Source of the DNA: Rhodothermus profundi
Lineage (GTDB): Bacteria > Bacteroidota > Rhodothermia > Rhodothermales > Rhodothermaceae
DNA: 64,000 nucleotides
Assembly (NCBI RefSeq): GCF_900142415.1
Contig: NZ_FRAU01000005.1
Span: 161,854-225,853, forward strand
Direction of reading: 5' to 3'
Below are positions 6,425-23,860 of the stretch, piece after piece. Each line of letters starts with the position of its first letter. The stretch's first letter is position 1. The notes below the pieces were generated by a model, which was not told the origin of the DNA, ran no database searches, and worked only from the letters and a program-made list of their open reading frames with translations. The position numbers and the translations under genes are program-made.

Positions 6425-8530
6425 ATGCGGTACGCTTTGATTGGCGCATTCCTGTCTCTGTCGGCGCTTGTGCTGCAGGCGCAGCCTTTTTCGCTCGAAG
6501 ACGTGCTGAGCGCTCCCTATGTGGAAGCTGCGGTCTTTGCGCCGGAGGTCCCTCGCGTCGCCTGGGTAGTCAATCAGGAAGGGGTGCGGAACATCTGGAT
6601 AGCCGACGCCCCGGACTTCCGTCCGGTACCGGTAACCCATTACACAGAAGACGACGGACAGGTGCTCGGTAGCCTCGCCTTTACCCCCGATGGTCGCCTG
6701 CTGCTGTATGTGCGCGGCGGCGCACCCAACCGACGGGGGGAATATCCCAACCCCCGGAGTCTGCCCGACGGCGTGCGCCGCGAAGTGTGGGTGGTCGAGC
6801 TGGCTACCGGTCGGACCTGGTCCTTAGGAGAAGGAGCCAACCCGGTGGTTTCACCGGATGGGCAGACCGTACTGTTCAGCCGACGCGGCACCCTGTATCG
6901 CATAGCTCTGCACCCCGACTCAACCGAGGCGCGACCGCTCTTCCGAGCGCGGGGCAGCACTCAGTCGCCTGCCTGGTCGCCGGACGGCCGCTACGTAGCG
7001 TTCGTGAGTAGCCGAGGCGCCTATAGCTTCATCGGCGTTTACGACACCCACGCCCATCGCATTCGGTGGATGGCACCAGGCGTTGACCGCGACATGGATC
7101 CAGTCTGGTCGCCCGATGGCCGGCATCTGGCCTTTATTCGCCAGCCCGGCTTGAAGAAAGGGGAACGCTATAACCTGATGGCCGGCTATCCTTTTCAGAT
7201 TTTGATCGCCGAAGTAGCAACGGGCGAGGCACGCGTCGTCTGGAGGTCGCCGGGTCGCGATGGAGGATTTGCGCAGTACTATCCGGCCGAACCGCTGCGC
7301 TGGGTACGCAATGGCCGACTGCTGTTTTACTCGGAGCATGAAGGCTGGCTGCACATTTACAGCCTGGATCCAGAACAGGGTACGTTGACCGATCTGACCC
7401 CGGGCAAAGCAGAAGCCGAGCACAGCGTTGTGTCGCGCGACGGTGCCTGGCTTTACTTTAGTGGCAACCACAACGATATCGACCGGCGGCACCTGTGGCG
7501 GGTACCAACGACCGGAGGCACTCCTGAACTGCTTACGCCGGGCACCGGCATCGAAACAGATCCCATCATTTCGCCGGACGGTCGCTGGCTGGTTTACCGG
7601 GCCGCTACGGCCCGACGCCCACAGCATCTGGTCGCGCTCGACCTGCAAACGCGCAGGATGCATCGCATCTTTCCGGAGCAGTTACCCGAACGTTTCCCGG
7701 AGGCTTACCTGGTCGAACCAGAGCCTGTGGTTTTCGCTTCCCTGGATGGACTCACGCTTCACGGTCAGCTCTTTCGGCCGCCTGATCTGCGCTCGGGCGA
7801 ACGCCGGCCAGCCGTGATCTTCCTGCATGGCGGCCCTATCCGCCAGATGCTGTTAGGCTGGCATTACCGGGGATATTATGCCCGGGCGTATGCCTTAAAC
7901 CAGTACCTGGCAGCCCGGGGCTATGTGGTGCTGTCGCTTAACTACCGTACTGGGATTGGGTACGGACGAGCGTTTCGCCTGGCTGCGCGTCAGGGACCTC
8001 GTGGCGCTTCAGAATACCAGGACGTTGTAGCAGCTGCGCTCTTTTTGCGTCACCTGCCTGAGGTCGATCCTGACCGCATCGGCCTCTGGGGCGGCTCTTA
8101 CGGCGGCTATCTAACGGCCATGGGGCTGGCCCGCGATTCCGAGTTGTTTGCTGCCGGCGTCGATCTGCATGGCGTGCACGACTGGGCGTTCCGTGCTACG
8201 GACTTTTCGCCCGGCGGCGGCTGGGGCATCGCCAACCATCCTGATAGCCTGGCCCTGGCCTATCGCTCTTCACCCGTAGCCGACATAGATCGCTGGCGCT
8301 CTCCGGTCCTGCTGATCCACGGCGACGATGACCGCAACGTCCTCTTCGAGCAGACCGTGGATCTGGCCCAACGGCTACGGGAACGGGGCGTGCACGTTGA
8401 GCTGCTCGTCCTGCCCGACGAGGTGCACAGCTTTCTGCTGCATGAAAGCTGGCTGCGCGCCTATCACGCCACCGTAGACTTTCTGGACCGTATGCTCCGC
8501 GACCGCACGCTGCCTTTCAGGCACAACTAA
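6425..8530 (+). CDS. S9 family peptidase (prolyl oligopeptidase/DPP IV-like), secreted
   Basis: A 701-residue serine peptidase. A signal peptide (MRYALIGAFLSLSALVLQAQ) is followed by a WD40-like beta-propeller with repeated SPDGR motifs (about residues 60-420) and a C-terminal alpha/beta-hydrolase domain. The triad is visible: Ser in GLWGGSYGGYLTAMG, Asp in HGDDDRNV and His in DEVHSFLLHES. The family cleaves dipeptides or acylated amino acids from short peptides, here in the periplasm. The start was chosen for the clean signal peptide; an ATG 42 bp upstream adds a non-signal tail. Its last codon overlaps the end of the convergent amidohydrolase by 4 bp. Confidence 0.92.
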   Translation: MRYALIGAFLSLSALVLQAQPFSLEDVLSAPYVEAAVFAPEVPRVAWVVNQEGVRNIWIADAPDFRPVPVTHYTEDDGQVLGSLAFTPDGRLLLYVRGGAPNRRGEYPNPRSLPDGVRREVWVVELATGRTWSLGEGANPVVSPDGQTVLFSRRGTLYRIALHPDSTEARPLFRARGSTQSPAWSPDGRYVAFVSSRGAYSFIGVYDTHAHRIRWMAPGVDRDMDPVWSPDGRHLAFIRQPGLKKGERYNLMAGYPFQILIAEVATGEARVVWRSPGRDGGFAQYYPAEPLRWVRNGRLLFYSEHEGWLHIYSLDPEQGTLTDLTPGKAEAEHSVVSRDGAWLYFSGNHNDIDRRHLWRVPTTGGTPELLTPGTGIETDPIISPDGRWLVYRAATARRPQHLVALDLQTRRMHRIFPEQLPERFPEAYLVEPEPVVFASLDGLTLHGQLFRPPDLRSGERRPAVIFLHGGPIRQMLLGWHYRGYYARAYALNQYLAARGYVVLSLNYRTGIGYGRAFRLAARQGPRGASEYQDVVAAALFLRHLPEVDPDRIGLWGGSYGGYLTAMGLARDSELFAAGVDLHGVHDWAFRATDFSPGGGWGIANHPDSLALAYRSSPVADIDRWRSPVLLIHGDDDRNVLFEQTVDLAQRLRERGVHVELLVLPDEVHSFLLHESWLRAYHATVDFLDRMLRDRTLPFRHN

Positions 8531-10589: not shown

Positions 10590-10926
10590 CTCGGGGCAAG
10601 CAACTTGCATAATCAAAACGGGACGCATTCCGCGTAAGGGAGAATCTCCTGCAACTTCTATCGAATGGGGCAAGTAGCTTTCGCCCTCCAGCCCCTGGTC
10701 TTGCCACGACTGAGCTTCGGCCCACCAGTAGCCCGAAGGTTGTCGCGCGGGCAGAAAGTCAGAATCATACCAAATTCTTTCTGATCTGGAGGAGCAAGGT
10801 AATCTGCCCACCTCCGGTCAGTGGAAGTCTGTCCTGCACTCCTCAGAAAGATTCGAGACTGCCTTGAACCCGGTTGAATCTTTCAAAGCCTGGTGCCGGT
10901 TGTACTTTCAAAAAGCGAATACCGCC
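10590..10926. other. Intergenic stretch, nothing recognised
   Basis: No supported gene, RNA or repeat was found between the terminator and the DUF7009-like gene. The DUF7009-like frame stays open for 63 bp upstream of its chosen ATG without a plausible protein start. Confidence 0.4.
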
Positions 10927-11286
10927 ATGAAACTCCGTCTTACCGAACGCGACCTGCGCCTCCGCCTGGAAGCTGACGATCTGGAAATGTTGCGGCAAAC
11001 GGGCCGTGTGGAACTCGCAACCCCTTTCGATGCACAGACAGCTTTCACCTGCACGCTCCGTATCGATGCGCAGACGGCTGTCCCGGTGGCTCATCTGGAC
11101 GGCTCGCGTCTTACCGTGCTGCTTCCTACCGACGAAGCCCGGCAATGGCTCGACAGTGATCAGATCGGTATTGAAGCGCGCCAGTCGGCCGGTCCCAACC
11201 GCACGCTGAAGCTGCTCATTGAAAAGGATATTGGCTGCCGGCACAAACCACAGGCGCGGCCGTCCGATGCCACCGTTGAACACTGA
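10927..11286 (+). CDS. DUF7009-like protein
   Basis: A 119-residue protein beginning MKLRLTERDLRLRLEADDLE, with a beta-rich middle (FTCTLRIDAQTAVPVAHLDGSRLTVLLPTDEARQWL) and a His/Lys-rich tail. The plan resembles small Bacteroidota DUF7009 proteins; this is from memory of the family and moderately sure. Its 3' end overlaps the mobA start by 20 bp, so the two are probably translated together, which hints at a link to molybdenum cofactor use. Six or seven tail residues contain C and H (DIGCRHKPQ) that might bind metal. Confidence 0.55.
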   Translation: MKLRLTERDLRLRLEADDLEMLRQTGRVELATPFDAQTAFTCTLRIDAQTAVPVAHLDGSRLTVLLPTDEARQWLDSDQIGIEARQSAGPNRTLKLLIEKDIGCRHKPQARPSDATVEH

Positions 11287-11863
11287 CCTGACGGCACTTT
11301 TACTGGCCGGCGGCCGAAGTCGCCGCTTTGGGACCGACAAAGCGCGGGCCGAAGTAAACGGCAGGCCCATGCTCCAACGGGTCTATGACGTAGCCCGGCG
11401 TTTCACGCCGCACGTTCTGCTCAGCGTTCGGGCCGATGGCGACTTTTATTTTGATCTGGTACCGCCAGCCGTTCCGCGCTTGCTGGATCCGGTGCCCGAT
11501 GCCGGTCCGCTGGCCGGGCTGGTTGCAGGACTGCGCACCGCGCGTACGCCCTGGTTGCTGGCCCTGGCCTGCGACCTGCCTTTCCTGACGAAGGAAGCCC
11601 TTCAGCCACTGCTTGAGGCCCGCACTGCTGACGTCACGGCTGTGGTGCCCATTACGTCCGACGGTTACCGTCAACCGCTCTGCGCGCTGTACCATGTAGC
11701 GGCGGTGCGTCCGGTCGCCGAAGCGCAGCTTACGGCTGGTTGCTACGCGCTACAAACGTTGCTTGACCGGTTACGGCTCGCTATCCTGTCCCTGCCGGAT
11801 GCTTCCCTGCGCAATGTCAACGTACCCGACGACCTACGACTCGGAGGCATCGGTCCGGAATGA
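11267..11863 (+). CDS. mobA: Molybdenum cofactor guanylyltransferase
   Basis: A 198-residue nucleotidyltransferase. The nucleotide-binding signature LLLAGGRSRRFGTDKA spans residues 11-26, DPVPDAGPLAGL and the metal-site ACDLPFL follow, and length is normal. MobA adds GMP to molybdopterin-Mo to give the bis-MGD or MGD cofactor in the cytoplasm. The start MPPLNTD overlaps the upstream DUF7009-like gene; a more upstream ATG would extend the overlap and add a basic tail. Its 3' end overlaps the convergent Clp1-like gene by 30 bp. No molybdoenzyme is in the window. Confidence 0.88.
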   Translation: MPPLNTDLTALLLAGGRSRRFGTDKARAEVNGRPMLQRVYDVARRFTPHVLLSVRADGDFYFDLVPPAVPRLLDPVPDAGPLAGLVAGLRTARTPWLLALACDLPFLTKEALQPLLEARTADVTAVVPITSDGYRQPLCALYHVAAVRPVAEAQLTAGCYALQTLLDRLRLAILSLPDASLRNVNVPDDLRLGGIGPE

Positions 11864-12763
11864 GGCTTTTCGGAGAGGAAGGTATTGTCGTTGCATTCCT
11901 GATCTGACCTCCGCCGGATCCAGCCGGAAGCGTCCGAACTGGATCGTGGCAATTTCACGCGCCTGAAAGGGAGGGGCCCAGAGATACAGCCACTGCAGGT
12001 CGGCGTCATACCGGGTTACGATCCCCAGCACCCGGGCGAATCCATATCGATCACAGAGAGCCACCAGGCGATGCCGGACCGCTTCCGGATTGTCCAGCGC
12101 CGGTACCATGCCGTGCAGTCCACGCGCGCGCACCGACAGCCGCCGCAATCGCGCCTCGGCAAAGTAGCGTTGAAATCGGTCGCGGCGGTACGAGCTTCGC
12201 ATCCACCGGTCGCGCTCCTGTACGGCTTCCGCCACTGCCAGCCGAATAATCCGAGGGCGCCGGCTTCTTCGGAAGCACTGGAGCACTGGCTCCAGCTCAG
12301 CATCGCGTTGGAGGGCGACCACATAGTCCGGGCGCAGCACATCCAGCATCTGAAAAAACAGTTCACGTCCAGCTTCGTTGGCCATATGGCCAGGCAGGTC
12401 GATTACCAGCCGCTGCGCCCGATGGCGACGCGCTGCTTCGACCAGGCGCACCAGCCCGCTGAGCATCTGCAGCAGATGTCCCTCCGGCGAAATATGCCCC
12501 ACAAATCGGAGCTTGAGCCAGCGCTCGGGATGAAGCGGAAGCGCGCTCAGCGCCAGCGTAGTCGGTGGACCTATCAGCGATTGCCCTGGATCGGCATCCA
12601 GAAAAAGCGTACGGGTTTGCGCCTGCAATTGCTCGGCCAGCCAGCATGCCAGCGTGGTCTTGCCGGCATTAATCGGGCCTGCCACCATCAGCAGGCGCCA
12701 TGGCCTTCCGTTCAATAACCGCGCGCGCAACGCTTCCCATTCAGCCGGAACGGTAATGTCCAT
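11834..12763 (-). CDS. Clp1/Grc3-like polynucleotide kinase (P-loop)
   Basis: A 309-residue protein with Walker A GPINAGKTT at residues 29-37, a Walker B-like DADPGQ followed by SLIGPPTT, and LVIDLPGHMANEAGRELFFQM. The DxDxGQ...G(P)PttL sequence after the P-loop is the signature of the Clp1/Grc3 polynucleotide kinase family, which phosphorylates 5'-OH ends of RNA in eukaryotes and archaea. A lid-like basic segment (RSSYRRDRFQRYFAEARLRRL) lies near residue 200. It starts 3 bp after the stop of the ABC ATPase, so the pair is one transcription unit. A GTPase or other P-loop role is possible. Confidence 0.72.
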   Translation of the reverse strand: MDITVPAEWEALRARLLNGRPWRLLMVAGPINAGKTTLACWLAEQLQAQTRTLFLDADPGQSLIGPPTTLALSALPLHPERWLKLRFVGHISPEGHLLQMLSGLVRLVEAARRHRAQRLVIDLPGHMANEAGRELFFQMLDVLRPDYVVALQRDAELEPVLQCFRRSRRPRIIRLAVAEAVQERDRWMRSSYRRDRFQRYFAEARLRRLSVRARGLHGMVPALDNPEAVRHRLVALCDRYGFARVLGIVTRYDADLQWLYLWAPPFQAREIATIQFGRFRLDPAEVRSGMQRQYLPLRKASFRTDASES

Positions 12764-12766
12764 GGC

Positions 12767-14515
12767 TCAGGCAGGTGGTTCGACGCGCACCCGAAGCGTC
12801 CGCAGACGGTTCAGCGCAGCCGCCAGCTCTTGCGCGCGAAATCCGGCCAGGTCCAGCAACCCCCGGGGATCCAGCACGTCCAGACCTTGCCGCTCGATAT
12901 CTGCCAGCACAGCCGCCACGATTTCCGGAATCGTGCGGCGGCCATCCATGTAACGCCGACGGGCATAGGCCAGCGCCTGTCCAATAGCTCGCGTCTGTGC
13001 CACGTGCACCAGTTGTTCAACGGCCCGCAGGTCTACAATGGTGGTCCCGAGCTGAAGCGTTTCGCGCCCGCGTGCCCGAACGTAGGACAAACGTTTTCCT
13101 TTCTGGGGCGACACGCTGGATGGATCAGGCACGCGTCGCACAGACGGTTCCCGGAAGGGATTATCCGGAACGGGCGTGCGCTCGCTTGGAAACGCCCGGG
13201 CAATTTCTCGAGCCGCTGTGGTCACGTCTTCCACGCGGTATTCGTGCAGTTTGATGACGGTGTCGGCCACGTCGAAAAAGTCGCCGCTGGAGCCGACCAC
13301 CAGAATCGTACTGACGCCCCGCGTTTCGTAAAGCTGGCGCACGCGGTCAATGAACGGTGTGATGGGCTCTTGAGCGCCGGGCACCAGGCGCTGCATCCGT
13401 CGGTCGCGTACCATGAAGTTGGTGGCCGCCGTATCTTCGTCGATAAGTAGCAGCGAAGTGCCGATTTCCAGCGCCTCCTGGATAGCGGCCGCCTGGCTGG
13501 TTGAACCGCTGGCATTGGCCGTGGAGAACGCGCGCGTATCAATGCCAGAGGGCAGATTGCGAATGAAAGGGGACAGATCCACGCCAGCCACACTCCGCCC
13601 ATCCTCCGCCCGCACTTTGACCGCATCGGGCACGGTCACGACGAACTCCCGGCCGTCGCCCGGCGCATGGTTATAGACGCCGCGTTCCAGCGCCCGCAGG
13701 AGCGTGCTTTTTCCGTGATAGCCGCCGCCCACGATAAGGGTAACGCCGGCCGGAATGCCCATGCCGGTCAGGCGACGACCGCTGGGCAGCACGACCTCTC
13801 GCTGCAGGGAAGGTGGCGCCTGAAACAGCACGGCACCGGTTTCCAGAGGCCGCTCGTCCACGCCGGAGCGACGAGGCAGGCAGGCGCCGTTGGCCACGAA
13901 CGCCACCAGTCCCCAGGACGGCAGTTGCGCCCGCAGCCAGGTAGCGTCTTCGTTCACTTCGGCGAACGTGCGCACGGCGTCCGGATCGTAGGCCGAAAAG
14001 CGCAGGCTTTCGCGCACGACCCGTGGTACGTCTTCCAGCAGCAGAGCCTGGGCCTCGTCGGCAGCAATCCGGCGACCGTAGGCCGGGAGCCCGACGGAAA
14101 AGCGGGCTTCGACGCCTTCGGCCGTTAGCCGCACCGCGGTGCGGGGGAGCACTTCCTGGCCGGGGCAGTCCATTTCGATCCGTCCGCTGTGCCCGCTCCC
14201 TCGCGGACGACTGAAACGTCGAGCTTTCTCAGCAAAGGTGCGGGCCAGCAGATGAGCCACGCCGATCGCCCGCGCCTCCGACTGATAACTCCACACGGGA
14301 AATTGAGCAACCTGCTGGGGGACCCAGACGTGCACGCGGCTGGGCGTGGCAAAGGGATCGCCCTGCACGTGCACCAGATGCAGCACGAAATCTCCTAGAT
14401 CATAGGCTCCCTGCAGCGTCTTGTATGCCTTGTATCCCCGCCCGTCGATGCGCCGGAGCTGCCGTCGCAGGGCTTCGGCCGTCTGCACCGACACCGCATC
14501 CGTTCGCATTCTCAT
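12767..14515 (-). CDS. ABC-class ATPase, MRB1590-like (PF09818-type)
   Basis: A 582-residue soluble protein with an N-terminal domain (residues 1-210), then an ABC ATPase core: Walker A GGGYHGKST at 263-271 and Walker B SLLLIDEDTAATNF. The signature region reads FSTANASGSTSQAAAI. A C-terminal helical domain follows. This architecture fits the predicted ABC-class ATPases related to trypanosome MRB1590, an RNA-binding protein of mitochondrial RNA editing; some databases misname them isomerases. There are no membrane segments, so it is not a transporter. It is coupled to the Clp1-like kinase downstream. Confidence 0.82.
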   Translation of the reverse strand: MRMRTDAVSVQTAEALRRQLRRIDGRGYKAYKTLQGAYDLGDFVLHLVHVQGDPFATPSRVHVWVPQQVAQFPVWSYQSEARAIGVAHLLARTFAEKARRFSRPRGSGHSGRIEMDCPGQEVLPRTAVRLTAEGVEARFSVGLPAYGRRIAADEAQALLLEDVPRVVRESLRFSAYDPDAVRTFAEVNEDATWLRAQLPSWGLVAFVANGACLPRRSGVDERPLETGAVLFQAPPSLQREVVLPSGRRLTGMGIPAGVTLIVGGGYHGKSTLLRALERGVYNHAPGDGREFVVTVPDAVKVRAEDGRSVAGVDLSPFIRNLPSGIDTRAFSTANASGSTSQAAAIQEALEIGTSLLLIDEDTAATNFMVRDRRMQRLVPGAQEPITPFIDRVRQLYETRGVSTILVVGSSGDFFDVADTVIKLHEYRVEDVTTAAREIARAFPSERTPVPDNPFREPSVRRVPDPSSVSPQKGKRLSYVRARGRETLQLGTTIVDLRAVEQLVHVAQTRAIGQALAYARRRYMDGRRTIPEIVAAVLADIERQGLDVLDPRGLLDLAGFRAQELAAALNRLRTLRVRVEPPA

Positions 14516-14552
14516 TGCTTTGCGGCAAACGCGTTGATCCGGAAACGCTCAT

Positions 14553-14594
14553 AAAAAACCGGCCTCACCGTAACGTTCCTGTCGGTGAGGCCGG
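14553..14594 (-). terminator. Strong intrinsic terminator of the receptor/secreted protein/PorV operon
   Basis: A 12-bp perfect stem, CCGGCCTCACCG paired with CGGTGAGGCCGG, with a 12-base loop and six T residues on the minus strand. It lies 28 bp after the PorV-like stop and before the ABC ATPase start. Confidence 0.9.
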
Positions 14595-14621
14595 CCCTAA
14601 CTGAGCGTGGCAAACCGTCCC

Positions 14622-15656
14622 TTAGAACTGTCCGCGCAACGTGAACACGTGGTTGTTCTCGAAGAATTGTGCAGGGATAAAGCCGTAGTCGAACGCCATA
14701 TTCACACCCAGCACAGGACGCAGATTTAGCGTAGCGCCGAAGGCCGGTCGATTATCGAAAGGCCCCTCCAGATTGCCTTGCTTTTGCGTATTCTGGACGT
14801 AGGCGCCCCGTACGATGAGGTAGTCCTGGAAGTTATAGGAAAGCTGGCCCTGCACCTGGCTGGGGCCGTAGGTATTTTCCATATAGGTCAGGCTGACCGA
14901 AAGGCCCTGCCAGACGCGATAACTGACCGCCACATCGACTACGGTCGGCACGTCGGCGTCGGCGGCTACGACTTTGTACTTTGTAACGGACCGTTCTCCT
15001 TCTGTGGTGCGGGCATCTACCAGCAGGGGTGGCCCGTCATACCGCATGGAGGTCCCGATGTTGCGAATGGCCACTCCTATCGAAAGCCCGCCCACTCCCA
15101 GGAAGTTATCGTACTGCACGCCGGCATCGAACGTTACGCCACTGGCGGCGACGTTGGCGAAGCTTTCGTAGTTCAGGTTAACGGTGGCTCCGACTCGAAT
15201 GCGGTCGGTCATAGCCCGGCCGTAAGAGAGGCCCAGCGTAAAGAACGTGGGCGAGAAAGTCTCGCCGGTGCCGTCCATGTTGAATTCATCCGTCTTCGGA
15301 ATATCGCCTATGTCGAAGCTGCGCAGGTGGAGGGCAAGCGCCCCGAGCGTCCCAAAACGCAGTCCGACCGCTGCAAAGTTGATCCCAATGTCCGCGATAT
15401 AATTACGCCGCGAAATCATCACCATCACGTTCCCTTCGCCGTAGTCGAGGCCGGCCGGGTTCCAGAGCACGCTTTCGATGCCCGTGACGGCCGCAGCCGC
15501 GCCTCCGCCTCCCAGGAATTGCCCTCCCAGCGGAATGAGCAGTTGGGAAGCAGCGTTCGTTCCGTTACGGGCCTCCTGAGCTTGCAGCGCCCCGGCTGAG
15601 CTCAGCAGCAGGACCAGCAGTACCAAGAGACCTGTGCGAAGCGATTTGGCTTTCAT
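14622..15656 (-). CDS. PorV/PorQ family outer-membrane protein
   Basis: A 344-residue beta-barrel protein. The signal peptide ends near residue 27 (AGALQAQ). A mature N-terminus GGQFLGGGGAAAAVTGIESVLWNPAGLDY matches the PorV/PorQ family (NPA motif). Alternating strands fill the rest, ending in the aromatic-terminated strand VFTLRGQF. PorV proteins are T9SS components that shuttle cargo to surface attachment. It is last in an operon with a T9SS-like cargo protein and a TonB-dependent receptor, so it probably serves that cargo. A GGAGGG site precedes the ATG. Confidence 0.87.
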   Translation of the reverse strand: MKAKSLRTGLLVLLVLLLSSAGALQAQEARNGTNAASQLLIPLGGQFLGGGGAAAAVTGIESVLWNPAGLDYGEGNVMVMISRRNYIADIGINFAAVGLRFGTLGALALHLRSFDIGDIPKTDEFNMDGTGETFSPTFFTLGLSYGRAMTDRIRVGATVNLNYESFANVAASGVTFDAGVQYDNFLGVGGLSIGVAIRNIGTSMRYDGPPLLVDARTTEGERSVTKYKVVAADADVPTVVDVAVSYRVWQGLSVSLTYMENTYGPSQVQGQLSYNFQDYLIVRGAYVQNTQKQGNLEGPFDNRPAFGATLNLRPVLGVNMAFDYGFIPAQFFENNHVFTLRGQF

Positions 15657-15691
15657 AATCTATGCCCTCCGTTTGGCTTCAACATGATGGC

Positions 15692-18600
15692 TCAATACCG
15701 TTGCAGAATCTGCTCTTCCTGCACAATGGCCAGCTTCAGCACCTTCTCGCCATAGGGGGTTTCTATGTGCACGATGTAGATGCCGCTGGCTACAGGGATA
15801 CCCGATTCATTCGTCAGATCCCACCGCTCAAACTGAGAGGGGCCTTCATGCTCAATCACCTTGACCGGTACCCCCGCCAGCGTAAAGATTCGGATCGTCG
15901 CTTTCTCGGGCAGGTGCGTAAAGGTGACGAACTTCTGGAATCGGTTGGCTTCCAGTCGGCTGAACCCGAAGTAAGGGTTCGGGAACACGTTAATGTCCTC
16001 TACCGCCTGCCGCTTCAGCTCAGGGTCATCCTGGACAATGCCTTCAATGGTGAATTCGTACCGATCATTTGGCGTCAGGGCAATGGCCGGGTAGAAGTAC
16101 AGGCGGAAAGGAGCTTCTAGATATTGAAGGTCTTCGACTAGCTGGGGCCAGAAAGCATACATCACATCCGCTCTCGGCGCCCAGTTGTCGTTGTTATAGT
16201 CAGCTCCTTCGTTGTAGTCGGACTTATGGATAAAGACATATTCCCGTCCTCCTGATTCCTGGCATTCTTCCCGACCGGTAAGCACCCCCAGATCCCATCG
16301 CATGTTGCTGCAGGACAGGTTCAGCTCCACAAAGCTCACGTTCACCTGACGCCGTGAGCCATCTGGCTGGATCTCATAGGCGGCAAACGGCAGGTAGCCG
16401 GTTCCCGCATAGGCATACCCCTGCCCCCGAATATAGACAGCGCCCTTACTGGCCCAGCCGTCAGCCGGTCCGCTTGTGGTGTCGCCCTGGAATTCCAGCA
16501 CGACAGGCGCCAGTTGATCGTCGGGTAGCGTGCTTCCGAAGAAGTGCGATCCGATGGCGGCCCCACCCGACAGGGCTTCGCCGCCCCAGTTAACACCGGT
16601 TATCCAGCAGGTGCTGTCACAGCGCCAGTCGGCAATCTGGGGCACCACGAAGGGGACGTACACCTGCAGCCCTTCAATTACGGGCACAATTTCCTGCGGC
16701 GGAACCGGGCCATCGGGATCAATCTGCGGCATCCAGTCGCTGATGGGCTGTCCGTCCCGAAGGAGGCGCCAGCGCAGTGGCCAGGGATCCCCGAGCTTGA
16801 ACTGGTTCGCCGCGCTGTAGTGCTCATGCTCGAAGAGGCCCTCGACCGCGGTCAACGTATCTTCGGGGGCCAGCGTGGTTTTCGTGGTGCCGGTTGCCGG
16901 GTCATAGTAGGCAAATTCCAGCGTATAGGTGCCGTTTTGCACCCGGGCCGGGTTGACCACCTTGATCTGCACGGCACTGGTGGAAGTCCCCGTATGCTGT
17001 AGCGTCACATCACTTTCAGGCGCCGGTAGCTCTGTTGAACCCGGCCTGGGTGGTTGAGGCGTGGCGGCTACGACCACAGGCGTACTTTCCAGCACGCGGA
17101 AGGGGGCCTCTATATCTTCGGTCAGCACAGCATAAGAGGTAATAGCGAAGTAATAGGTTACCCCGTTAGCGAGCGGACGCTGCCGTATGGCATCCCGCGT
17201 GATGGTAAGGTAGCGTTTGAGCCCTTCATCCGATCCGAACTGGACCGGCTTTTCCAGCACGAAGCCGGTTGCCGGGTCAAACGCGTTGTCAAAGACAATG
17301 GTAATCAGGTTTTTCTTGTCAAAGGTGGCCAGTCGCACCCCATCTGCTATTGAGGCGGTGGGAGAGGGAAGCTGATAGACGTTATAGCCTTCAAATTCAA
17401 ACCCGGAGTCTCGATAGCTTTCGACCTGGGCGACCTGATCCCCATCGAAGCCCCAGTCCAGTACGATTTGCTTGTCCAGCTCTACCACCTGCACAGGAGG
17501 AACGTCTGGAGGCGAGGGCAGGACAAAGTTGTTGTCGTAGGCAAACTGGGCGAACAGGTCGTAGTACTTCAGGAGACTGATGCTGGAGAGATTGTTCGTT
17601 CCCAGGGCAGCGATCTGCCCCACTACGACATCAACCGTATCGCCTTTGTGCATGGTGAAGGGTCCACTGGAGAGGACGATTCGGCGGTCACCGGGAGGCA
17701 ACTCCTGACCGTCGATCCAGCCGCGTCCGGTTACCGGATCGCCGGTCAGGGCAAACTTGGTAGGTTGCCCTGTATTCGGATCAATGAAGGGGTCTCCAGC
17801 GGGATATTCTGGCCGCGGGCGATACCCGCGCATCAGGTTGTACCACTGGAGCGTCCCGCTGTACTCGCCCAGATCCGGGTCGTTGATATCGGAGCCGGCG
17901 GCAAAGTACACAAACGCCGTCATCCCCAGCGTATCGCCCTCCGCATTGACCGGTCCTTGCAGGAAGTCCCAGCCTACCGCCGGTGGGGGCAGGTTAAACG
18001 CTTCGTAGGAGTCATCACGCGGGTTGGCGTTATAAGCATATCCCAGCGATAGCGTCGTGTCGCTGCCGGCAAAGTCGTCCGAATACGTGCCTACGTCTGG
18101 GTCAACCCACCAGACCACAAACATCGAATCGATACGAGCATCCGGAGGCGTGTCGGGCGTGCCCGTGTAGATCAGACGCGCCCGCATAAAGGCGATGTTG
18201 CCCAGCGGGTTGGTGGCTGGAAAGTCGTACCCCCAGATGGTGAGCTGATACTCGATGCCAATGGCTGGCGACCCATAGCTCCGCTCCGAGGTCCCCTGCC
18301 GCAGGTCGTTGGTTACGATCCAGAGCGTCTGATCGGCTCCGGGATAGCCTGGAATATCCCCATCCTCAGGGGAACACTCAAATTCACCATCTTCGTCGGG
18401 ATCCGTCGCAGGCTGGTAGCCTGGGATGCCGTTGCACTCCTGGTAGGGCGCGCCCCACTCGGCCGGCCAGTTGTTCCAGTCATATTCGTATTGATCTAGG
18501 ATGGCCTGGCGTTCCTCCTCTGTAACCTCGCTCGGATCTTTACCGAAGAAGTAAGCAGCGGCCGCGGTCACGTCGAACGAGCTAGACTTCCAGCGGCGAT

Positions 18601-19033
18601 GGACGCGCCAGACGTGGTACTTTTCCAGGCTGATCTCGTCGGGCCCTTGCACGGTCCCGGTCACGGGATCCCAGAGCACCCGGCCCGGATCCAGGCCGGT
18701 TTCATAGGTGCTCCCGTTTACCCGCACGACCGGCATTTTACCATCCATTACCTTCCCGCCCCACACAAACCCCTGCGCAAAAACCGGCCCAGCTGTGCGT
18801 TTGGGCATCGTGCCATTGACCCCGGAGAAGGGGTCAATCCAGTCAAATTTTCCGTCATTCCGGATCCAGACGGTTGAGTTGTTCACATCCAGTACCGAAA
18901 AGCGTGGATGCTGAGGTTGCGCCACAGCACGGGGCTGCTTCATGAGAGCGGTTTTATCCTGCGTCCAGGCAATGCCGGGTACCAGCAAGAGCAGCCCCAG
19001 ACCTACGAGCAGTCGCTTTATTTTCGCGTACAT
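15692..19033 (-). CDS. Large secreted protein with T9SS-type C-terminal domain
   Basis: 1113 residues. The signal peptide is LLVGLGLLLLVPGIAWTQ. The body is Asp/Pro-rich with beta-sandwich (fibronectin III-like) sections near residues 520-670. The C-terminal 90 residues begin INVFPNPYFGFSR and contain ATIRIFTLAGVPVKVIEHEG and WDLTNESGIPVASGIYIVHI, close to the T9SS type A sorting domain or FlgD-like tail. It is therefore predicted to be exported across the outer membrane by T9SS. The function is unknown. It follows the TonB-dependent receptor by 49 bp and precedes PorV by 35 bp. GGAGGAG precedes the start. Confidence 0.8.
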   Translation of the reverse strand: MYAKIKRLLVGLGLLLLVPGIAWTQDKTALMKQPRAVAQPQHPRFSVLDVNNSTVWIRNDGKFDWIDPFSGVNGTMPKRTAGPVFAQGFVWGGKVMDGKMPVVRVNGSTYETGLDPGRVLWDPVTGTVQGPDEISLEKYHVWRVHRRWKSSSFDVTAAAAYFFGKDPSEVTEEERQAILDQYEYDWNNWPAEWGAPYQECNGIPGYQPATDPDEDGEFECSPEDGDIPGYPGADQTLWIVTNDLRQGTSERSYGSPAIGIEYQLTIWGYDFPATNPLGNIAFMRARLIYTGTPDTPPDARIDSMFVVWWVDPDVGTYSDDFAGSDTTLSLGYAYNANPRDDSYEAFNLPPPAVGWDFLQGPVNAEGDTLGMTAFVYFAAGSDINDPDLGEYSGTLQWYNLMRGYRPRPEYPAGDPFIDPNTGQPTKFALTGDPVTGRGWIDGQELPPGDRRIVLSSGPFTMHKGDTVDVVVGQIAALGTNNLSSISLLKYYDLFAQFAYDNNFVLPSPPDVPPVQVVELDKQIVLDWGFDGDQVAQVESYRDSGFEFEGYNVYQLPSPTASIADGVRLATFDKKNLITIVFDNAFDPATGFVLEKPVQFGSDEGLKRYLTITRDAIRQRPLANGVTYYFAITSYAVLTEDIEAPFRVLESTPVVVAATPQPPRPGSTELPAPESDVTLQHTGTSTSAVQIKVVNPARVQNGTYTLEFAYYDPATGTTKTTLAPEDTLTAVEGLFEHEHYSAANQFKLGDPWPLRWRLLRDGQPISDWMPQIDPDGPVPPQEIVPVIEGLQVYVPFVVPQIADWRCDSTCWITGVNWGGEALSGGAAIGSHFFGSTLPDDQLAPVVLEFQGDTTSGPADGWASKGAVYIRGQGYAYAGTGYLPFAAYEIQPDGSRRQVNVSFVELNLSCSNMRWDLGVLTGREECQESGGREYVFIHKSDYNEGADYNNDNWAPRADVMYAFWPQLVEDLQYLEAPFRLYFYPAIALTPNDRYEFTIEGIVQDDPELKRQAVEDINVFPNPYFGFSRLEANRFQKFVTFTHLPEKATIRIFTLAGVPVKVIEHEGPSQFERWDLTNESGIPVASGIYIVHIETPYGEKVLKLAIVQEEQILQRY

Positions 19034-19082
19034 TGCTCCTCCGAGTCCTTTCGTTCAGACGGTTGTTATTGGATATGCTGCC

Positions 19083-22000
19083 TTAAAATTCCACCCGCAA
19101 TCCGAGCCGGACCTGACGAGGCCGGTCAAAGAGATCTACCCCTTCATCGGCGATGTAATGCTGCCGGTTGCGCAGGTTGATCTGCTGATAGTAGTAGACA
19201 TAGTCCGGTCCCTGTCCCTGCACAATCTCTTCGCTCAACTCCGGATTGCTCAGGAACCCGTCATCGAAGGGGTTCCCGGTGCGCAGGTACACGTTGATCG
19301 GGTTGCGCCGGTTGAGCAGATTTTCAATGTACATGTAGGCGGTAGCTGTAGCCCGTCCCAGCGCAAATCCTTTCTCAATGCGCAGGTCGGTGCGGAAGTA
19401 CCAGGGCGTTGTGGAGGCGTTCAGCGGTTCCAGCGGCACGCGGTTCCGCGGGTCACTCCCCGTCAACAACGCTCCCTCATCGGCTCCCCGCTGCCCCACG
19501 CCTCCCGTGCTGCGCGTAAAGCGATGTCCACTGTTAAAGGAGAACAGCAGGTTTACGGACAGATGCTGCAATACCACCGGCTGATCAGCCCCTGTTCGGT
19601 AGTCCAGCACAATTGCTCCCCGATGGCGCTGCTCAAATGACAGGGGTTGCAGCAGCGATGGGGGCGCTGTCCCGTTCTCCAGGGCCGAGACCTGTCCCCC
19701 AGGCTCCGAGTTCGTCCCCTTCGCATCGGTGAGCGTGTAGTTGAACATGGCCATCACGCCCCCAATGCGCCGCGTGCGCAGGCTGATTTCAATGCCTCGG
19801 GCGATGGAGAAATCGCCATTGGTGAACAGGTTGTACGGATTGGCTGAAGAGGTGGGATCGGTATTGATCCGAATAATCTCAATCTGCCCTTCGGTCTTCC
19901 GATAGAAAGCCGTGATATCAAAGGCCGAAAAGTCCGTAAACTGATGGCTGAAGCCAATCTCGTACTGCGTCGTTTTGATCGGCTCCAGCTCAAAGGCAAA
20001 GGGATGGGCAAAGAAGAACCGGCCGCTGAAGATCAGCGCCATGCGCGAGCGCCGGGTATAGGCAAAGCCCATATCCGGCATCTGGGCGAACTTCCCGTAC
20101 TGCAGGTGAAACACCGTCCGATCGGTCACCGGGAAGGAGAGTCCGAGGCGCGGCTGCAGCACCGATTTAGCGGGCGCTGCCTTCAGCCCATTGGGAATTC
20201 CCGGACCTGCTCCCAGTACGGTTGCCTGGTTTGGATCATAGGCAGGATTGCGTCGATCTTCCACCGTCCACAGATCCATATCAAAGTAATCCCACCGCAA
20301 TCCAGCATTTACAATGATGTCGTTGAATTCAATTTTGTCGTTAATGTATAGCGAGGCAGTAACCGGGCGCTTGGGGCCGTCCAGACCCCTATTCAGCTTG
20401 TTCATGAACTCGTCGTATCCATACCCGCCCCATCCGTCCTGGCGAATCCGAAATGCAACTTCATCGGCCTCTGCCTGAATCTTCTGGATATAGCTCGGGT
20501 CGTTTTGCAGAATAGAGGCCAAACCGCTACCGCTGAGCACGTACTCACGAAGCGTCCAGCGCTGGTAATGCCCCCCAATGCGCAGCTCGTGATTCCCCTG
20601 CTGCGAAACCAGGCCCAGCGCAATGTTCCAGTATGACTGTTCGCGCCGCTGATAGGTGGTCAATACCCGTCCCGGACGATGGAAGCGGAACGTGTGGAAT
20701 CGATAAAGCGGGGGTTGCTGATACTGCCCCTGCCAGAACCGCGTATAGAGATCAGCTACCTCCGGGTCGCTGCTCAGGGCCTCCCGAACGGCCTCCCGGT
20801 TGTAATAGTTCACGACATTGAGGACGGCTCCGCCTTTTCCATCTGCCCGGGGAGGATCAAACAGCGGGTCGTAAATCTCAAAGTTGTACTGGAAGAATCC
20901 CAGCGTTCCTTCCAGGTAGGTATTGCTGCTCAGGAAGTAGGTAGCCTGCAGGCTGGCCAACCAGCGCAGGTCGTCCCGACGGGGCAGCCGCTTCTGGTTG
21001 TAGAAGTTCCGGATGGGCAAATTATTGAGCCGTCGATTCCCGGTCAGCAGCGCTCCCCCCAGCCGCACGCGTAGCGGATTGAAATCAAACAACAGCGTGC
21101 CATTGATCCGCCACACTTCCAGGGGCCGTCCAATTCCCGGCAGCTTACCATCTTCCCACCGAAGAGGCGCTACCGCCGTATCTCCTCGAATATCATCAAT
21201 CGGGGGGATGCACTCCTGATCGGGGTCGTTGACGCACAATCCCCCGTTCTTGCTGTAGTCCAGGTTGGCGCCATACCAGAACAGGGGATTATAGTTGTCT
21301 GTGCTCCGTCGATTGACGGCGATGAAAAAGCGATGCTGCTTCCATACCAGCGGTCCCCCCAGCGTCAGGGTCAGATCGTTATATCCGTACGCATACGTGT
21401 TGTTAAATGCATCCGCGACAAAGTCGCTTTCGTACTGCACCATTCCGCTGAGCCGGGGCCCACCGGTCCGCAACACCTGCTGCACAATGCCCGCGTTGGC
21501 TCCTCCCAGCTCAGCACTATATCCCCCGGCGAAGACCTGAATCTCTTCAAGGGCCTCGGGAATGACCGGAATCACGTTGTCCGTCCCAATCAGGCTGCGC
21601 GCGCTGATGCCTTCCAACAGATATTCCGTCTCATCGGGACGTCCGCCGCGGATGTAAACCTCGCCATTGAGCAAGGTAACGCCCGGTTGAATGGCATAAT
21701 AGGTGGCCACACTCCGGGTAGGAAGCTTCTCAAACGCCTCGCGGTCGAGGCGGCGCACTGCATTGGTCGCTGTGGGATTAATCAGCGGCCGCGCTGCCAC
21801 CACGACAATTTCCTCGCCTTCAATGGTTGCAGGCCGCAGTTCGAAGTCCAGCCGCGTGGTAATCCCTGCAATGACCTGTACATTTTCCTGCCGCACTGTC
21901 GCATATCCCACAAAGCTGGCTACCACCGTATAGGTGCCCGGTGGCACCTCAAAGATGGTGTATTCCCCACTGACGTCGGTCGAGGTGCCCAACGTTGTCC

Positions 22001-22148
22001 CTTCCAGAAACACGTTGGCCCCTGGAAGGGGTTCGCCCGTACTGGCATCGATGACTCGTCCCGCTAGCTTTCCTGTGTTCTGGGACCATGCTAGTGCAGG
22101 GAAGAGCAGGAATGTCAGCAGTTGTAGCATCCATGTGCGCAACATCAT
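19083..22148 (-). CDS. TonB-dependent receptor with carboxypeptidase-regulatory-like domain
   Basis: 1021 residues. A signal peptide ends at WSQ (about 23). A carboxypeptidase-regulatory-like domain at 27-110 (GRVIDASTGEPLPGANVFLEG) is followed by the plug (about 130-235; RSVATYYAIQPGVTLLNGEVYIRGGRP) and a C-terminal 22-strand barrel ending in aromatic-rich VRLGLRVEF. It is not SusC-type and no SusD lies next to it. It probably imports a ligand with the secreted protein encoded next, or acts in surface display. GGAGGAG sits 4-5 bp before the ATG. It is the first gene of the operon. Confidence 0.9.
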   Translation of the reverse strand: MMLRTWMLQLLTFLLFPALAWSQNTGKLAGRVIDASTGEPLPGANVFLEGTTLGTSTDVSGEYTIFEVPPGTYTVVASFVGYATVRQENVQVIAGITTRLDFELRPATIEGEEIVVVAARPLINPTATNAVRRLDREAFEKLPTRSVATYYAIQPGVTLLNGEVYIRGGRPDETEYLLEGISARSLIGTDNVIPVIPEALEEIQVFAGGYSAELGGANAGIVQQVLRTGGPRLSGMVQYESDFVADAFNNTYAYGYNDLTLTLGGPLVWKQHRFFIAVNRRSTDNYNPLFWYGANLDYSKNGGLCVNDPDQECIPPIDDIRGDTAVAPLRWEDGKLPGIGRPLEVWRINGTLLFDFNPLRVRLGGALLTGNRRLNNLPIRNFYNQKRLPRRDDLRWLASLQATYFLSSNTYLEGTLGFFQYNFEIYDPLFDPPRADGKGGAVLNVVNYYNREAVREALSSDPEVADLYTRFWQGQYQQPPLYRFHTFRFHRPGRVLTTYQRREQSYWNIALGLVSQQGNHELRIGGHYQRWTLREYVLSGSGLASILQNDPSYIQKIQAEADEVAFRIRQDGWGGYGYDEFMNKLNRGLDGPKRPVTASLYINDKIEFNDIIVNAGLRWDYFDMDLWTVEDRRNPAYDPNQATVLGAGPGIPNGLKAAPAKSVLQPRLGLSFPVTDRTVFHLQYGKFAQMPDMGFAYTRRSRMALIFSGRFFFAHPFAFELEPIKTTQYEIGFSHQFTDFSAFDITAFYRKTEGQIEIIRINTDPTSSANPYNLFTNGDFSIARGIEISLRTRRIGGVMAMFNYTLTDAKGTNSEPGGQVSALENGTAPPSLLQPLSFEQRHRGAIVLDYRTGADQPVVLQHLSVNLLFSFNSGHRFTRSTGGVGQRGADEGALLTGSDPRNRVPLEPLNASTTPWYFRTDLRIEKGFALGRATATAYMYIENLLNRRNPINVYLRTGNPFDDGFLSNPELSEEIVQGQGPDYVYYYQQINLRNRQHYIADEGVDLFDRPRQVRLGLRVEF

Positions 22149-22345: not shown

Positions 22346-23791
22346 TCAGGAGGCCCAAATGGGCTTCCACTGTCGCAGCCGATCTTTGATGTAGGAGAGG
22401 AGCTGGGTTTCATGAACGCGCTCCTGCTGCATCGTGTCGCGGTCGCGCACGGTAACAGTACCATCTTCTAGGGTCTGGCTGTCGATCGTCACGCAGAAGG
22501 GCGTGCCCACCTCGTCCATGCGCCGGTAACGCCGACCAATTGCCCCTTTTTCGTCATAGAACGTGTTCAAGAACGGCCGCAGCTCGCGCACCAGCGCCTG
22601 CGCGCGCTCGGGCATCCCATCTTTGCGCACCAGCGGGAGCACCGCCACTTTAATAGGCGCCAGCCGTGGATGCAGCCGGAGCACCACACGCGTTTCCCCT
22701 TGCACTTCCTCCTCGTCATACGCCTCGCAGAGCAGCATCAGGATCGTGCGGTCCAATCCAGCCGACGTCTCCACCACGTACGGGATATAGCGCTCCTGCG
22801 TCTGCGCATCAAAGTACTCCATCTTCTTCCCGGAAAACTCCTGATGCCGCCGCAGATCGTAGTCCGTCCGCGAATGTATACCTTCGACTTCCTGCCACCC
22901 CATCGGAAACAGGTACTGGATGTCGACGGCCGCATCGGCATAATGCGCCAGCTTCTCATGCACATGGAAGCGCAGATGATCGGGGCGAATGCCATTCTCA
23001 ATGTGCCACTGCAGCCGCTTTTCCTTCCAGGCTTCGAAGGCTTCCATCTGCGTGCCCGGCCTGACGAAATACTGCATCTCCATCTGCTCAAACTCGCGCA
23101 TCCGAAAGATGAACTGCCGGGCTACAATCTCATTCCGAAATGCTTTGCCAATCTGCGCAATACCAAAGGGAATCTGCAGCCGCGAGGAATCCTTTACGTT
23201 GTGAAAGTTGACAAAAATGCCCTGGGCCGTCTCCGGGCGCAGATATACCTTGGTCTCTTCCGAAGCGACCGGCCCGACGTGCGTTACGAACATCAGATTA
23301 AACTGGCGCACTTCGGTCCAGTCAAAGGCCCCTGAGTCCGGAGACGGAATGCGCTCCTCCATGATGATCTGATAGAGCGCGCGCGGCATGTCGTCAGCAT
23401 TCAGCGCTTCAATAAGCCGCCGATGCAGCGCTTCGGCCCGTTCTGTTTCCCCCCGGGCCCGAAGTTTCTCGATGTAATCTTCAATAAGCTGATCAGCCCG
23501 ATAGCGACGCTTCGACCGTCGATCGTCAATGAGCGGATCATTAAAGGCATCCACGTGGCCTGACGCCTTCCAGACCATGGGATGCATCAGGATCGCGGCG
23601 TCCAGGCCGACAATGTTCTCGTGCTCATAAACCATGGCCTCCCACCAACGCTGCTGCACGTTTCGTTTCAGCTCAACGCCCAGGGGGCCATAGTCGTACA
23701 CAGCCGCCAGTCCCCCATAAATTTCCGACGAAGGAAAAATGAATCCGCGTCGCTTGCTGAGCGAAACAATCTTTTCGAGCCGATCCTGCAT
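22346..23791 (-). CDS. glyS: Glycyl-tRNA synthetase (alpha2 type)
   Basis: A 481-residue class II synthetase of the single-chain (GlyQS) type. Motifs include SLSKRRGFIFPSSEIYGG near residues 7-24, a motif 1 region ending AVYDYGPLGVELKRN, and catalytic-domain signatures such as LRPETAQGIFVNF and FGIAQIGKAFRNE (motif 2). The C-terminal anticodon domain begins around residue 385 (PIKVAVLPLVRKDG). It charges tRNA-Gly in the cytoplasm. The start MQDRLEK fits the family; a longer N-terminus would run through the promoter. Confidence 0.95.
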   Translation of the reverse strand: MQDRLEKIVSLSKRRGFIFPSSEIYGGLAAVYDYGPLGVELKRNVQQRWWEAMVYEHENIVGLDAAILMHPMVWKASGHVDAFNDPLIDDRRSKRRYRADQLIEDYIEKLRARGETERAEALHRRLIEALNADDMPRALYQIIMEERIPSPDSGAFDWTEVRQFNLMFVTHVGPVASEETKVYLRPETAQGIFVNFHNVKDSSRLQIPFGIAQIGKAFRNEIVARQFIFRMREFEQMEMQYFVRPGTQMEAFEAWKEKRLQWHIENGIRPDHLRFHVHEKLAHYADAAVDIQYLFPMGWQEVEGIHSRTDYDLRRHQEFSGKKMEYFDAQTQERYIPYVVETSAGLDRTILMLLCEAYDEEEVQGETRVVLRLHPRLAPIKVAVLPLVRKDGMPERAQALVRELRPFLNTFYDEKGAIGRRYRRMDEVGTPFCVTIDSQTLEDGTVTVRDRDTMQQERVHETQLLSYIKDRLRQWKPIWAS

Positions 23792-23829
23792 GGTTGTTTC
23801 GTATCCTCTTACAGAGCAAACGGAGTTTT

Positions 23830-23860
23830 CAAAGGTAGGCCGCCCATGCGCCGGACGCAA
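23830..23860 (-). promoter_or_regulatory. Bacteroidota-type promoter of glyS
   Basis: On the minus strand TTG (23860-23858) is followed by 20 bases and TACCTTTG (23837-23830), matching the Bacteroidota -33 TTG and -7 TAnnTTTG consensus. Predicted transcription begins roughly 30 bp before the glyS ATG. Confidence 0.7.

Follow-up and report, generated by a model that had tools for sequence, protein, structure and literature searches.

Two adjacent genes in Rhodothermus profundi, one encoding an ABC ATPase of the MRB1590 type and the other a kinase of the Clp1/Grc3 family, raise the question of whether their products act together on RNA ends in a bacterium. The locus was analysed in a window of 64,000 nt (NZ_FRAU01000005.1, positions 161,854 to 225,853), and coordinates are window positions. 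To our knowledge, no cellular role has been established for bacterial Clp1 kinases or bacterial MRB1590-type ATPases, and none was found in a literature search. The two-gene unit gives each of these orphan bacterial families a concrete, testable partner, although the value of the pair is weakened by its narrow distribution and by a species that manages without the ATPase.

A probable two-gene unit behind a terminator-like hairpin

The pair and its immediate surroundings contain four features.

11219..11863 (+): MobA-like nucleotidyltransferase gene (NTP_transf_3, E 1e-34), convergent and downstream, outside the unit
11834..12763 (-): Clp1/Grc3-family polynucleotide 5'-hydroxyl kinase, 309 aa (CLP1_P, PDB profile search, motif positions)
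12767..14515 (-): MRB1590-type soluble ABC ATPase, 582 aa (PF20446, PF09818 and PF21117; alignments with PDB 5d6a and 4yix)
14550..14600 (-): terminator-like hairpin and T-run between a PorV-like gene and the ATPase gene (RNA folding)

The ATPase gene is the first and the kinase gene the second of the pair, and only 3 bp separate the ATPase TGA from the kinase ATG on the same strand. Both open reading frames and their spacing agree with the first-pass annotation of this DNA. The kinase/ATPase gene pair is not a chance pattern. Both genes are under purifying selection, with dN/dS values of ~0.06–0.15 for the kinase and ATPase genes alike in a genus-wide comparison.

The hairpin separates the ATPase–kinase unit from the upstream genes. 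The 66-nt stretch that contains it has a folding energy of -29.5 kcal/mol and a z value of -3.83. It was detected by folding and was not listed by the terminator scan, whose loop limit is 8 nt. An equivalent hairpin and T-run precedes the ATPase gene in all six genomes that carry the pair. Given the 3-bp spacing and the strong terminator-like hairpin upstream, the pair looks like a two-gene unit, and this organization is supported by a gap of 3–5 nt and a hairpin just upstream in each of the six genomes. The gene arrangement suggests that the ATPase and kinase genes are co-transcribed.

The gene upstream of the hairpin differs between species. The window and G003 have a PorV-like gene there, and G004, G005 and G006 have a glycyl-tRNA synthetase gene (glyS); the G002 neighbour was judged to be glyS by matching upstream sequence. 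In the window, glyS is located further upstream (22346–23860). A same-strand block of genes for a TonB-type receptor, a large T9SS-type protein and the PorV-like protein occupies positions 14622–22148 between glyS and the ATPase gene; the block genes were named by eye, and the PorV-like gene has no Pfam match. Because glyS is far from the ATPase gene in the window and adjacent to it in G004, G005 and G006, the three-gene block is present only in some species. The ATPase–kinase unit remains whole despite this change of neighbour, which is modest evidence for the unit.

On the other side, the mobA-like gene overlaps the 3' end of the kinase gene by 30 bp and adjoins it in every genus member with that side sequenced. 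A DUF7009 gene (window 10864–11286), also kept genus-wide, adjoins and partly overlaps the mobA-like gene. The retention of these two genes calls for caution in reading the conservation of the unit. Rfam searches at gathering thresholds gave no match in window positions 8000–30000, and no tRNA was found in the window.

The kinase and the ATPase

The kinase matches the CLP1_P family (PF16575) with an E value of 1.4e-29 and 103.7 bits (cut-off 26.6) over model positions 1–187 of 188, and the second-best Pfam family reaches an E value of 0.0021. In a PDB search with a profile of six relatives, the nine top matches are all Clp1, Grc3 or NOL9 structures. C. elegans and human Clp1 come first and are followed by Grc3 and NOL9, with other P-loop proteins later. 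The Clp1/Grc3 P-loop set that had been recognized from the sequence at first pass is confirmed. Walker A (GPINAGKTT) is found at residue 29, Walker B (DADPGQ) at residue 56 and the GPPTT motif at residue 65. The defining positions of Walker A, GxxxxGK(S/T), and Walker B, DxDxGQ, do not vary among six kinase sequences. The RxxxR lid is RSSYR (residues 189–193), and its arginines persist, together with Walker A and Walker B, down to a relative of 33% identity in another genus (G122). Judged by its family and motifs, the kinase would phosphorylate the 5'-OH of RNA with ATP as the donor.

The clasp of the kinase departs from that of Clp1. The equivalent of the Clp1 motif TPGW/TCGW is LPGH (residues 123–126) in the window kinase and TCGF in G122, so that the clasp tryptophan is replaced by histidine and phenylalanine, respectively. 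As a result, the substrate preference of the kinase may differ. A C-terminal extension of ~100 aa follows the kinase domain. The AlphaFold model of the kinase is poor (pLDDT 52.6), and Foldseek matches are led by Clp1 structures with TM scores of only ~0.27; these matches were given no weight for this reason. A small kinase tree of the genus members and G122 has poor support and does not separate loss of the ATPase in G001 from its original absence there.

The first-pass annotation regarded the locus as uncharacterised RNA end-processing in a bacterium, which overstates the novelty of the kinase. A bacterial Clp1, that of Thermus scotoductus (Ts-Clp1), has been characterised biochemically and phosphorylates RNA 5'-OH ends (PMC6777427). 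Ts-Clp1 and the window kinase are both small CLP1_P kinases of thermophilic bacteria with intact Walker A and B motifs, and their distribution in bacteria is equally sporadic. The window kinase differs from Ts-Clp1 by the ~100 residues after the kinase domain and by the clasp histidine in place of the Clp1 tryptophan; its RxxxR lid is canonical, and the gene immediately upstream encodes an ATPase, two further differences. The top PDB profile matches, C. elegans CLP1 (clpf-1, PDB 4ohv) and Grc3/NOL9, align with it at Walker A, Walker B and the lid. In contrast to these proteins, the window kinase has no eukaryotic N-terminal domain, has another residue in place of the clasp tryptophan and is encoded in an operon-like bacterial context. 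Both protein families are thus known already, and the pairing alone looks new; no description of it was found in a literature search of open-licence full texts.

The assignment of the ATPase to the MRB1590 family of soluble ABC proteins also holds, and the protein is full length, as three Pfam domains are found in one chain, all far above their cut-offs: PF20446 (ABC_N, E 3.1e-51), PF09818 (ABC_ATPase, E 1.3e-122) and PF21117 (MRB1590_C, E 3.3e-30). In the PDB, the ATPase matches 5d6a (E 1.3e-121) and Trypanosoma brucei MRB1590 (4yix, E 1.6e-106), with which it has the three-domain architecture and the ABC motifs in common. These motifs are Walker A GGGYHGKST (263), signature ASGSTS (335) and Walker B LLLIDEDT (355). 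MRB1590 is a dimer with slow ATP hydrolysis and an N-domain cleft that binds ssRNA; its authors suggested that it acts as an RNA chaperone and not as a helicase (PMC4538832). Mutation of R199-R200 lowers RNA binding ~590-fold, and mutation of F95 lowers it ~10-fold (PMC4538832). These cleft residues align with R148-R149 (in GRRI) and F55 (in GDPF) of the window ATPase, whereas the R525-R529 patch of MRB1590 is not conserved. By homology, the ATPase is probably a dimer with an ssRNA-binding cleft in its N-domain, and it probably alternates between an open and a closed state depending on nucleotide. Unlike MRB1590, the window ATPase is paired with a kinase gene, and no RNA-editing machinery is claimed for it.

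Distribution of the pair

The kinase is present in all seven genus genomes and the ATPase in six, and in those six the two genes are adjacent, 3–5 nt apart. This spacing is retained between paired species with dS values of up to ~1. G001 carries the kinase without the ATPase, and a PorV-like gene and a terminator-like hairpin with T-run are located directly before its kinase gene. In G003, a homopolymer T run with one base more than its window counterpart interrupts the kinase frame (L036 4200-5187), through either a sequencing error or a real frameshift.

Conservation of the pairing, for which the first-pass annotation had proposed a genome survey, is restricted to one genus among the relatives searched. 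Among 244 genomes of the class, eight from two genera have the kinase and six from a single genus have the ATPase; the six genomes with both all belong to one genus. The phylum sample comprised 394 genomes; two genera there have the kinase, two have the ATPase, and one has both. The extra genus is represented by G122 for the kinase and by G388 for the ATPase, each with one gene alone, and in G122 there is a 4-bp overlap between the kinase gene and a GBBH-like_N gene. No adjacency was found outside the one genus in either set. The kinase and ATPase are therefore not strictly interdependent, given the single genes of G001, G122 and G388, and the genus-restricted pairing amounts to effectively one evolutionary event. 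Searches of plasmid records, phage records and viral contigs did not find the kinase; ATPase homologues are present on some plasmids, without the kinase and beside unrelated genes. In control searches, Thermus composti and Methanocaldococcus jannaschii each carry both families.

RNA ends and the possible role of the pair

The RNA ligases and RNases of these genomes bear on what a 5'-kinase might do. RtcB was found in 9/9 genomes checked and RNase E/G in 5/5; RNase J gave no match over the cut-off in the genomes checked. RNA_ligase (PF09414) was absent from all six genomes searched and was detected in six control genomes. The Rnl1 family (PF09511) had no match in the genomes or in the controls, so this negative carries no weight. 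RtcB ligation requires 5'-OH ends. Resealing of broken RNA, which had been suggested at first pass, is made less likely by the lack of an RNA_ligase homologue and by the presence of RtcB, the single RNA ligase found, which needs the 5'-OH that the kinase would remove.

We tentatively prefer a reading in which the kinase converts 5'-OH RNA fragments to 5'-P for turnover or processing of the RNase E/G type, with the ATPase holding or remodelling the RNA. The substrates would be 5'-OH fragments released by metal-independent RNases or by heat-driven hydrolysis. With the strand held or remodelled by the ATPase, the kinase would create a 5'-monophosphate end, which is closed to RtcB joining and suits RNase E/G turnover or processing that senses 5'-P. 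With RtcB and RNase E/G present and RNA_ligase not found, production of 5'-P ends by the kinase would divert fragments from RtcB to such 5'-P-sensing pathways. Both the joint action of the two proteins and the decay or processing outcome in this bacterium are what we infer. A stricter version, in which a physical complex feeds ssRNA 5' ends from the ATPase to the kinase and forms a machine choosing between RtcB sealing and 5'-P-dependent decay of 5'-OH breaks, is unlikely.

The preferred joint reading is challenged by genomes with only one of the two genes, the kinase in G001 and G122 and the ATPase in G388, and by the confinement of adjacency to one genus in which the mobA and DUF7009 neighbours are also kept. 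The replacement of the clasp tryptophan by histidine in the window and by phenylalanine in G122 also weighs against it, as substrate preference may differ. It is possible, if somewhat doubtful, that the two enzymes share a promoter and serve separate pathways, one as a general RNA 5'-kinase and the other as a housekeeping ABC protein associated with RNA or the ribosome. Their adjacency would then be an accident of the genus ancestor that general gene-order conservation has preserved. Such independence would fit the single-gene genomes, the unrelated neighbours of the plasmid ATPase homologues and the synteny of mobA and DUF7009 in the genus. However, the 3–5 nt spacing has persisted in six species at dS values of up to ~1, and the unit stays whole while its upstream neighbour varies.

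An RNA repair (healing) module, in which an ATP-dependent ligase seals the 5'-P ends made by the kinase and the ATPase is a tethering or unwinding subunit, is improbable. It is established knowledge that yeast-like RNA ligation draws its 5'-P ends from Clp1/Pnkp-type kinases (outlined in PMC13247085), but the six genomes lack PF09414, and the RtcB that is present uses 5'-OH ends. Little probability is also given to a role in maturation of pre-rRNA or another stable RNA, like that of Grc3/Nol9 at the eukaryotic ITS2, where the kinase would phosphorylate a defined 5'-OH intermediate for trimming and the ATPase would open structured RNA. In published trees, prokaryotic Clp1 branches at the base of the Nol9/Grc3 group, and the possible role named by the authors is pre-rRNA processing (PMC10598085). 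However, a kinase found in only 8/244 class genomes is missing from almost all members and is thus not a general rRNA maturation step in the class. A defence or stress module against tRNA-breaking RNases or phage is very improbable, since the patchy distribution of both families that would suit it is set against PADLOC models that match neither protein, identified neighbours that include no defence genes, a chromosomal place that is fixed in the genus and a kinase not found in the phage, plasmid or viral sequences searched.

With RtcB present and RNA_ligase not found, the system is suited to asking whether bacterial RtcB is counteracted by phosphorylation of 5'-OH ends. Such antagonism has been proposed for CLP1 in animals, and a review (PMC13247085) describes CLP1 as working against RtcB ligation in insect cells. 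RtcB itself varies within the genus. It is split by an in-frame intein-like insert of ~500 aa in G002 (C1:591324-594152), G004 (C1:564597-567425) and G005 (C206:15642-18470), where two PF01139 pieces lie in one open frame of ~1000 aa, whereas the RtcB of other genus members is uninterrupted and ~490 aa long.
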